Source: an uncultured Ignavibacteriales bacterium
GTDB lineage: Bacteria > Bacteroidota > Ignavibacteria > Ignavibacteriales > Ignavibacteriaceae
Assembly: GCA_903929035.1 (NCBI GenBank)
Contig: CAIYTF010000022.1
Location: 1 to 53,762, forward strand
Direction: 5' to 3'
Length of the DNA stretch: 53,762 nt
Made by a program: the position numbers and the translations under genes. Positions 44,026-46,317 of this stretch are shown one piece after another. The first letter of the stretch is position 1, and each line of letters opens with the position of its first letter. The notes under the pieces were generated by a model. That model searched no databases, was not told where the DNA came from, and saw nothing but the letters and a program-made list of their open reading frames with translations.

Positions 44026-46317
44026 ATGAAACAAGCTTGCCTACTAATGGTTTTAGCTATTATGGTCTTATTGACCTCAGCCCCCAGAGCAGATACGAAG
44101 AGCATTGCTACTGTTACAAGTGTACATAAAGTTATCACTGTGACATTACCTGCTCCTTATAACGAAACAGTTTATGCCGGTACTTTCAACGCGGTTATCA
44201 ATAATGTACCCGTGAATCTTTATTGTGTCGATATTTCGCATAATCTCGCGTTTAACGAGTCATATCAAGACGTTTCAGCTACAGATAGTGTAATGACTTA
44301 TGTTTTAAATAATTACTATCCGTTCAAAGCATATCCATATACCGGATCATTGAATACTGTTGAAAAAGAAGCCGGTGCAGTGCAAATAGCTTTATGGCAT
44401 CTTTCCGATGGATTGGATATTAACTTATGCTCCAATGTTGATGCTTCAGTAAAGATAAGAGCATTGGAAATTTTGTCGGACGCAGCCGCTAACGCTCACG
44501 TCTTCAGCCTCAATTCGTTTTTCATTGATATACCAAATCAATCATTCAATATAGGCTCACCGATTACTTTCACCGTGAAAGCATTTGATAATATGGGTAT
44601 TGCTATGCCTAACGTTAATATCACTCTTTCAACGGGTGCAGGTTCGCTTAGCACAACAACTGTTACTACCGGTGCAAACGGTGTATCTCCTTCTGTTACT
44701 CTTACTCCAACAGGAAATATGACCACTGCAAATATTACCGCCTCAGGCACAGTTGGAATTCCTGCAGGAACAAAGTATTTCCATTTGGCGGATCCAAACG
44801 GTAAACAAAAATTAATTCTTGCTACGCCTACAATAGCATCAAGAACTATTTCAAGAACTATAAGTTGGTATAATCAAATCCAATTAGTTGTTACAAAAAA
44901 AGCAGACAAATCAACAGTTAACGATGGTGATTTTATTAATTACACGTTAACAGTTAAGAATATAGGGGCAGTAAACGCTCAGAATGTTAAGGTTTCAGAT
45001 CAGCTTCCTGCAGTACTTGATTATGTTTCCTGCACGCCAAGCGGCGTTTTCAACAGTGGAACCGGCATTTGGTCGGCAGGTGACTTAAACGCGGGTGACT
45101 CAACAGTTGTAGTTATTAATACAAAAACTAATTATTCTCATTCAAATGCAAATCCATTTAACTTCGGTGAGGCTCAAGACTTCAATCTATTTGTTATTGA
45201 TACTCTTATCCAGCCTTCTGCAGATACCCAAGGCAAACTTGCTGTAGGTGGTTATGCAAGTCTTTCAGGTTACAGTGTAGGCGATCAATTACCTCCTAAT
45301 TCAGGAAATGTATTAGTTTGCGGGAATCACCTTACCTTTATGGTAGGACGTGTTTATAACGGCAAAGCACTCTATCAAGAATATATTACATCTACTATGA
45401 GTTTTTCAGCCGATGATGGTATATATAAAGACAGTGTTGTCAACTTCGCAGGGGCTAAATTGCATCTAAATAATTTATCTGAGCAATTAGCCTCGTTATC
45501 GCGAACAGATACTGTTGCCCAATCTTATTTTGCTTTAACTTTAAACGGAAGCAAACCGGGATTGAATGTTTTCTATCTTGACGGCAGTAAATTGTTAAAT
45601 AGTAACGGATTTACTATTAACGCTCCTGCAGGTTCATCAGTGATAGTAAATATTTCAGGTGACAGCACAAGACTATTTGGAGGCTTTGAAGTAAACGGTA
45701 CGACAAAAGATAAAGTGCTATTAAACTTCTATCAAGCAACAAAATTGAATATTTCCGGAATTAATGTTCTCGCTTCCGTTCTTGCTCCAAAAGCAAAACT
45801 TGATTTCCCTGCAGGTGTTGTTACCGGACAATTAATTGTTCGTTATATGTATGGTTCAGGTCAAGTAAATTTGTGCCAATTCACCGGAAGATTAACTCCT
45901 GACACTTCTATTACCAACCTTGCAACAATGATTGGAGCAAACCAACGGAATATGCCCAGTTTCTTTAATGCCCCTGTTGCAGGCAGATCCGTTGTAGCTG
46001 GATTGAAAAGTACAGTTGCAGGAATCAAATATTCATCTTTTGCTGAAGTTCCTAAAGAATTCAAATTAGAACGCAATTATCCAAATCCGTTCAATCCTTC
46101 AACAGTCGTGAAATTCTCTATTCCCGTCACAACTTCTGTCAAAGTGGAAGTATTTTCTGTAACAGGAGAGCTTATCAGCACGCTTGTTGACCAAGTTCTA
46201 ACCGCTGGAACACACGAAGTTTCTTTCGATGCCGGCAATCTTTCGAGTGGTATTTACTTCTGCCAAATGAAAGCTGGAAGTTTCAACCGGATTCAGAAAA
46301 TGATTTTGATGAAATAA
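44026..46317 (+). CDS. T9SS-exported thioester-domain adhesin-like protein
   Basis: 763 residues in five parts. (1) Signal peptide, about 1-22. (2) A thioester-type domain (about 30-160): Cys67 in NLYCVDISHNL and Gln120 in GAVQIALWHLSDG are placed as in TIE/TQXA domains, where they form an internal thioester that bonds to host or surface groups. (3) A Big-like domain (about 168-250) and a DUF11 domain (about 287-370, VVTKKADKSTVNDGDFINYT). (4) A choice-of-anchor A beta domain (about 375-630). (5) A type IX sorting domain (about 680-763, LERNYPNPFNPSTVVKFSIP). Probably secreted across the outer membrane and attached to the surface. Domain names are by eye. Confidence 0.82.
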   Translation: MKQACLLMVLAIMVLLTSAPRADTKSIATVTSVHKVITVTLPAPYNETVYAGTFNAVINNVPVNLYCVDISHNLAFNESYQDVSATDSVMTYVLNNYYPFKAYPYTGSLNTVEKEAGAVQIALWHLSDGLDINLCSNVDASVKIRALEILSDAAANAHVFSLNSFFIDIPNQSFNIGSPITFTVKAFDNMGIAMPNVNITLSTGAGSLSTTTVTTGANGVSPSVTLTPTGNMTTANITASGTVGIPAGTKYFHLADPNGKQKLILATPTIASRTISRTISWYNQIQLVVTKKADKSTVNDGDFINYTLTVKNIGAVNAQNVKVSDQLPAVLDYVSCTPSGVFNSGTGIWSAGDLNAGDSTVVVINTKTNYSHSNANPFNFGEAQDFNLFVIDTLIQPSADTQGKLAVGGYASLSGYSVGDQLPPNSGNVLVCGNHLTFMVGRVYNGKALYQEYITSTMSFSADDGIYKDSVVNFAGAKLHLNNLSEQLASLSRTDTVAQSYFALTLNGSKPGLNVFYLDGSKLLNSNGFTINAPAGSSVIVNISGDSTRLFGGFEVNGTTKDKVLLNFYQATKLNISGINVLASVLAPKAKLDFPAGVVTGQLIVRYMYGSGQVNLCQFTGRLTPDTSITNLATMIGANQRNMPSFFNAPVAGRSVVAGLKSTVAGIKYSSFAEVPKEFKLERNYPNPFNPSTVVKFSIPVTTSVKVEVFSVTGELISTLVDQVLTAGTHEVSFDAGNLSSGIYFCQMKAGSFNRIQKMILMK

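Follow-up and report, generated by a model that had tools for sequence, protein, structure and literature searches.

Does a bacterium of the Ignavibacteriales, a lineage which we take to be Gram-negative, carry a thioester adhesin on its surface, and which residues would make the bond? The question is raised by one open reading frame (ORF) in the window, which is the whole stretch of 53,762 nucleotides that was analyzed. The first-pass annotation had placed a protein-coding frame here, and the ORF and its translation confirm it exactly, on the plus strand and with 763 amino acids (Table 1). On the opposite strand across this region, the displayed frame is riddled with stops. It appears that the protein consists of an N-terminal class II thioester domain (TED), a DUF11 linker, a choice-of-anchor A (CAA) domain, and a C-terminal tail of the type IX secretion system (T9SS), an arrangement that is supported by both sequence and prediction. 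We regard it as fairly probable that the protein works as a class II thioester-domain adhesin and that the T9SS displays it. Support is good for the family, the class, and the assignment of the residues; the bond, the display, the reaction, and the target are what we infer. In the survey of Walden 2015, TED matches were found exclusively in Gram-positives (PMC4450167), and Monzon 2022 adds TED-like clusters (PMC9210967).

Table 1. Features of the thioester-domain locus, with positions counted in the window.
Feature	Position	Strand	Basis
Whole ORF, 763 aa: T9SS-type protein with class II TED, DUF11, and CAA	44026..46317	+	ORF call, Pfam, NCBIfam
Probable signal peptide, aa 1-23	44026..44094	+	Hydrophobic N-terminus, judged by eye
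Class II thioester domain, ~aa 24-268	44095..44829	+	Pfam TED at aa 65-137, model, fold matches; limits from model and alignment
Cys67, likely thioester Cys, within LYCVD	44224..44226	+	Kept in 110/110 scorable
Gln120-Trp124, TQxxW-type motif, in the model's second helix; not the bond Gln	44383..44397	+	Both kept in 111/111; role from PMC6194298
Ig-like beta-sandwich inserted in the TED, ~aa 165-245	44518..44760	+	Model strands between helix 3 and late hairpin; intimin/invasin matches
Gln261, proposed thioester Gln, within GKQKLILATP	44806..44808	+	Kept in 111/111; aligns with bond Gln of 5a0g and 5a0l
DUF11 (CLIPPER-like) domain, aa 287-374	44884..45147	+	Pfam, 74.3 bits; CLIPPER 9ifr Z 9.1, equal with integrin chains
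Choice-of-anchor A / ice-binding-like adhesive domain, aa 380-621	45163..45888	+	Pfam, NCBIfam; ice-binding folds, Z <=18.4
Type IX (type A) C-terminal sorting domain, aa 685-760	46078..46305	+	Pfam, NCBIfam, genome-wide tail search

The domains were explored through Pfam and NCBIfam. The TED model of Pfam (PF08341) matches aa 65-137 with 27.6 bits against a cut-off of 22, and the same protein scores 31.9 bits in the search of its own genome. The TQXA model of NCBIfam stays below its threshold (12.3 versus 30.4 bits). DUF11 and CAA domains had been named in the first-pass annotation and both are present. DUF11 scores 74.3 bits, and the CAA domain is found as pAdhesive_15 in Pfam (PF20597, aa 380-615, 158.5 bits against 23.8) and as choice_anch_A in NCBIfam (TIGR04215, aa 384-621, 156.2 bits against 29). 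The type IX sorting signal is there as well, encoded as a Por_Secre_tail at aa 685-760 (40.4 bits against 27), and the tail model of NCBIfam gives 36.4 bits against 23. The original proposal of a thioester-type domain on a T9SS-type protein finds support in the Pfam match, the conservation, the fold prediction, and the sorting tail. Its Big-like domain stands in part: an intimin/invasin-like Ig fold is found, but it is no separate domain and sits within the class II TED in the model, and Big_1 (aa 179-240) is below threshold in Pfam (20.1 versus 34.9 bits).

An AlphaFold model was made on alignment A2, which holds aa 24-290 of the window protein and 79 of 80 loci; L041, an incomplete sequence, was left out. 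The model (pLDDT 92.3, pTM 0.81) contains a barrel, three helices, a sandwich, and a late hairpin. The beta-sandwich is an insert, with strands at model residues 142-222, between the helix at 117-133 and the strands at 226-242. In class II TEDs, the beta-sandwich is formed nearly entirely by an insertion of ~75 residues between helix 3 and the late hairpin (PMC6194298). Foldseek returned six matches at E <=0.001, and all are TEDs: EfmTIE86 (two chains), BaTIE (two chains), SaTIE, and a Cpa mutant. VIA-align gave Z 17.1 to BaTIE (6fwv_B, 246 aligned, rmsd 9.1 A) and Z 14.8 to EfmTIE86 (6fwy_A, 240 aligned, rmsd 7.1 A). Matches to class I heads included 5a0g_A with Z 12.3 (141 aligned, 3.0 A) and 5a0l_A with Z 11.2 (147 aligned, 3.7 A). 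The high rmsd to the class II structures may reflect a different orientation of head and sandwich in the model. The stretch at ~aa 165-245 matches intimin and invasin, which is an Ig fold; since it lies inside the class II TED in the model, the TED extends to ~aa 268.

Searches by sequence gave less. With phmmer, aa 25-171 returned four chains among the solved structures, none of them a TED. The A2 profile ranked intimin/invasin and phage-tail chains first, on the insert, and reached TED chains only at E 0.037 (5dcq_D) and 0.13 (4c0z_A). Because these sequence-only searches are weak, the connection to solved TEDs is drawn from Pfam, from the fold, and from where the Cys and Gln lie. The N-terminal domain is almost certainly a class II TED.

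The conservation of the candidate residues was counted over the window protein and 110 homologous loci, that is, 30 TED loci from its own genome and relatives and 80 loci from titled genome contigs (the best 80 of 119). Of the two patterns used to fetch the 80 loci, one was the TQxxW motif, and neither includes Cys67 or Gln261. The Pfam TED model, with which the other 30 were found, spans Cys67 and stops well short of Gln261. Alignment A1 holds the window protein and 28 of the 30 loci; the two left out, L005 and L025, retain the Cys, Gln120, and Gln261. L038, L050, L062, L066, and L082 are included in the count of 111. All 110 sequences that are scorable at Cys67 have the Cys (L041 is truncated and does not reach the site), and Gln261 is kept in 111 of 111. 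Gln120 and Trp124 are each kept in 111 of 111, a conservation that is partly by construction since the motif was a fetch pattern. The first-pass annotation had named homologues lacking Cys67 or Gln120 as a point against the domain, and no such homologue was found. The set contains some mutually duplicate loci. With one sequence per 90% identity, each of Cys67, Gln120, Trp124, and Gln261 is kept in 89/89, and with one per 50% identity in 24/24. In a set of 92 distinct TED sequences, all 91 that are scorable at Cys67 have the Cys, and all 92 have Gln120 and Gln261; for comparison, Gln81 is retained by 14 of the 92, and Gln172 by 72 of the 91 scorable there. Gln172, the next Gln past the motif, was considered as the bond Gln and ruled out, being kept in only 90 of the 111.

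Cys67 and Gln120 were originally placed as in TIE/TQXA domains. The positions are right and Gln120 lies in a TQxA-type motif, VQIALW, but it is the motif Gln and not the bond Gln. In this motif, Val replaces Thr, and the Gln and Trp (model residues 97 and 101) lie within the helix at 89-105. The implied bond between Cys67 and Gln120 is not supported, as the motif's Gln and Trp are non-essential for the bond and the bond Gln is on a later strand (PMC4450167, PMC6194298). The partner of Cys67 is predicted to be, most likely, Gln261. Going by its sequence context, Cys67 is likely the thioester Cys; YCVD fits the [YFL]C-hydrophobic-hydrophilic motif of class II TEDs. The late conserved Gln is also present after the insert, preceded by Lys and not by a hydrophobic residue, so that the weak published motif is partly kept. 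Gln261 (model residue 238) directly precedes the predicted strand at 240-242. It is 194 residues from Cys67, and in BaTIE the thioester joins Cys71 and Gln266, 195 apart (PMC6194298). The structural alignments end at model residues 246 and 247, opposite chain residues 275 (5a0g) and 270 (5a0l). Counting back to their bond Gln, at 267 and 261, leads in both cases to model residue 238, which is window Gln261; this count to the bond Gln of CpTIE and SfbI presumes that the last eight or nine residues are free of gaps. A TED in which the Cys was changed to Ala retains essentially its native structure (PMC4450167). The fold is thus independent of the bond, and by itself would not explain the invariance of Cys67 and Gln261. 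With good confidence, a thioester is predicted to form in this TED.

The linker and the putative docking domain were modeled as well. Alignment A3 contains the window protein and 62 of 63 fragments; the fragment of L076 was left out, as it is upstream of that locus' TED ORF. The second model (window aa 281-626 and 62 loci) has a pLDDT of 91.7. Its CAA part matches ice-binding proteins with Z up to 18.4. Its DUF11 part matches CLIPPER (9ifr) with Z 9.1, level with integrin and other chains. CLIPPER has a Lys-Asn isopeptide bond with an Asp nearby (PMC12617251), and the Lys and Asp of its reactive site are conserved in the window protein's family: Lys291 is kept in 77/77, and position 325 is Asp in 73 and Glu in 4 of the 77 sequences that passed the length filter, from 80 loci hit. 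The Asn is where the two differ. CLIPPER 9IFR has an Asn partner, whereas none is found inside the DUF11 domain of the window protein. The sole candidate, and the sole invariant Asn late in the stretch, is Asn387, which already belongs to the beginning of the CAA domain. This residue, at the DUF11-CAA junction (window 45148-45195), is invariant in 77/77 and lies 96 residues after Lys291. Judging by the alignment, Asn387 may serve as an isopeptide partner from beyond the domain boundary, or it may be a plain CAA residue whose conservation has nothing to do with a bond.

From the literature search came a single functional lead for CAA, Jonah(1), a CAA-bearing lectin of Acanthamoeba that binds cellulose (PMC6541295). 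The Jonah lectins have the CAA domain in common with the window protein; they differ from it in being eukaryotic cyst-wall proteins with no TED. By this analogy, the CAA domain could dock on polysaccharide, a putative role to which we give slightly less than even chances.

Signs of type IX export are present in the genome. It contains 56 Por_Secre_tail matches, 52 of them above the cut-off, and a SprA_N match of 143.1 bits, SprA being the sole component of the T9SS machinery that was searched. Among L032-L111, 66 ORFs are 3'-complete, and 65 of these have a motif of the NYPNPFNP type within 110 residues of the C-terminus. Only L078 does not, and it comes from a bin labelled Anaerolineae. Pfam was run on seven of the 3'-complete proteins; the tail was found in six and was absent from L078. 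At the C-terminus of the window protein, no LPXTG anchor was seen by eye, and the T9SS tail is there. The protein is predicted, with high probability, to be displayed on the surface. The presence of a T9SS fits with a Gram-negative lineage.

The TED is widespread in the order. It was found in 36 of 59 genomes, comprising the protein's own and 58 relatives of the genus, family, and order, and in 33 of a phylum sample of 395 genomes (own included). These fall into 31 of 40 sampled Ignavibacteriales genomes versus 2 of 355 others of the phylum, a split in which 342 unlisted misses are counted outside the Ignavibacteriales, the list being ordered from near to far. The TED was found in 0 of 14 control genomes. 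The best 80 of 119 loci bear the titles Ignavibacteria, Ignavibacteriae, Ignavibacteriales, Ignavibacteriaceae, Ignavibacterium, Melioribacter(aceae), and Stygiobacter; the others among them are unresolved Bacteroidetes, Bacteroidota, Chlorobiota, Chlorobiaceae, and "bacterium" bins, and one Anaerolineae. L117, outside the order and in the same phylum, keeps the Cys and a late Gln in an ORF that reaches the contig edge. No pointer to host association was found in the record titles, where the named relatives are mostly environmental MAGs.

The proposed mechanism would run as follows. After export to the periplasm and folding, Cys67 would attack the side chain of Gln261, releasing ammonia and forming a buried Cys67-Gln261 thioester. 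Gln120 and Trp124, in the second helix, would pack against the Cys as they do in solved TEDs. The T9SS would carry the protein across the outer membrane, with its C-terminal end held at the cell and the TED distal. The CAA domain would dock on a surface, with polysaccharide as the best guess from the cellulose-binding amoeba lectin, and a nucleophile of the target would react with the TED, leaving the two durably joined by a covalent bond. Covalent adhesion by the window protein may well occur, although we would put it lower than the formation of the bond itself.

Other readings of the N-terminal domain have to be weighed against this one. It is very improbable that the TED match is spurious and that an unrelated beta-rich domain holds a Cys and a Gln by chance. 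The modest Pfam score, the sub-threshold TQXA match, and the weak sequence-only matches to solved TEDs would fit with this, but PF08341 scores reach 58.3 bits in relatives, the best matches by fold are TEDs, aligned along the full length, and three expected motifs are invariant. A thioester between Cys67 and Gln120 is just as improbable. It could draw on the complete conservation of Gln120 and on the solved TEDs, in which the motif Gln adjoins the thioester and hydrogen-bonds with the Cys backbone (PMC6194298). That conservation comes in part from the fetch pattern, however, and the bond Gln of solved TEDs is on the late strand Q; Gln261, moreover, is also invariant and occupies the structural position of the bond Gln.

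If the TED is accepted, its use can still be read in other ways. The TED fold may have been kept while no lasting covalent link is made, so that the head binds non-covalently and the CAA domain does the adhesion. The CAA domain by itself may bind glycans, and BaTIE itself has no known target (PMC6194298). We consider this quite unlikely, as neither Cys67 nor Gln261 varies in alignment A2, where column identity averages 44%, an invariance for which the fold alone would not account. The thioester may also serve the bacterium's own surface, linking to its own glycan or proteins or to sister cells in aggregates and not to a foreign target. This is unlikely as well, but it is the rival that we take most seriously. 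The lineage has no known host here, and two TED proteins in the protein's own genome together with the lineage-wide spread would agree with a general role at the surface. In Bacillus subtilis, a class II TED works between bacterial cells in conjugation (PMC8092201). On the other hand, SfbI, a TED whose target has been identified, reacts with a protein of the host (PMC6194298), and the TED of the window protein is N-terminal and distant from the anchor, which suits an outward reach.

The preferred reading, a displayed class II thioester adhesin, can be compared with known systems. The predicted fold is like those of the class II TEDs of TIE proteins (BaTIE 6FWV, EfmTIE86 6FWY, and SaTIE 6FX6) in its barrel, three helices, Ig-like insert, and late hairpin, at a sequence identity of 11-15%. 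Gram-positive TIE proteins and the window protein both have the TED at the N-terminus and the anchor at the C-terminus. The TIE proteins in Walden 2015 almost always have an LPXTG cell-wall anchor, and most have isopeptide or ester domains (PMC4450167). In the window protein, a T9SS tail is found in place of the LPXTG anchor, and DUF11 and CAA domains in place of the CnaB-type stalk. Its anatomy is thus TIE-like, with a reactive head far out and a C-terminal anchor, without the sortase anchor and with another export route. TIEpLS20, the class II TED adhesin of the Bacillus subtilis plasmid pLS20 that acts between bacterial cells in conjugation, has its Cys and late Gln 188 residues apart, at Cys57 and Gln245 in the frame of the record (68 and 256 in the paper, minus 11; PMC8092201). 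The late Gln is in the context YQRLM there and in the similar KQKLI in the window protein. TIEpLS20 differs in being Gram-positive, in its role in conjugation, and in having no TQxxW match in its first 300 residues. The profile gave nothing usable against the single TIEpLS20 sequence.

In the open-licence literature, nothing was found that joins a thioester domain with type IX secretion, and nothing on a thioester adhesin in Ignavibacteria. Open-licence papers on PF08341, TQXA, or thioester domain-containing proteins include none on the window lineage, going by titles and the start of abstracts. Since the Pfam model finds these proteins, automatic domain databases very likely list them already. 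What is new here is the lineage, the architecture, and the residue assignment; the family itself is known. The correction of the Gln identifies which Gln a decisive mutation should target. Should the bond form, the range over which covalent adhesion is known would take in outer-membrane bacteria with no known host, and the question arises of how a reactive thioester passes through the periplasm and the T9SS pore. A wider reading is tentative and somewhat unlikely. In free-living, Gram-negative Ignavibacteriales, these proteins could be lineage-wide covalent lectins, in which the CAA beta-solenoid sits on a polysaccharide, the class II TED bonds to it or to a neighbour, and the T9SS provides the hold on the outer membrane. 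If this were true, covalent adhesion would no longer be limited to Gram-positives and would serve generally for attachment to surfaces in the environment or to cells; the cargo of the T9SS would then include a folded protein bearing a reactive thioester.

The surroundings and the architecture of the TED proteins vary. Six neighbour proteins, presumably serA, PGM, yqgF, relA, PFK, and argS, were compared by tblastn with the fetched loci (except L002 and L116), and one match was found, a PGM relative in L081. As many loci have short flanks, the absence of synteny is weakly shown. A tblastn search of plasmids with the TED of the own genome's second TED protein (L001) found no match. DUF11 and CAA domains were found in 62 of the 66 3'-complete ORFs, with profiles built from A3, which was itself drawn from the same loci. 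Four ORFs are without them, so these domains are not obligatory partners of the TED. A minimal form is present in L086:5893-7347 (+), a frame of 499 aa with a TED and a T9SS tail motif and without DUF11 or CAA. L052 and L056 encode long TED proteins (frames of 1929 and 2061 aa) with the T9SS tail motif and no DUF11 or CAA match. L118, from genome G205 in the same phylum and outside the order, is an ORF of 228 aa with a weak TED (23.7 bits) and an end that looks PEP-CTERM-like by eye; it is too short to hold the class II insert. In the phylum of L078, the TED was found in 2 of 201 genomes, that of L078 counted. The TED proteins from two genomes of that phylum, L078:4129-5793 (+) and L122, are without a T9SS tail; one has a TED and GEVED and the other a long TP repeat. 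The second TED protein of the own genome, L119:3727-10017 (+) on contig C6, is 2097 aa long from its first ATG. It possesses SdrD_B repeats, DUF11, CAA, and a T9SS tail, with the same Cys, motif, and late Gln.
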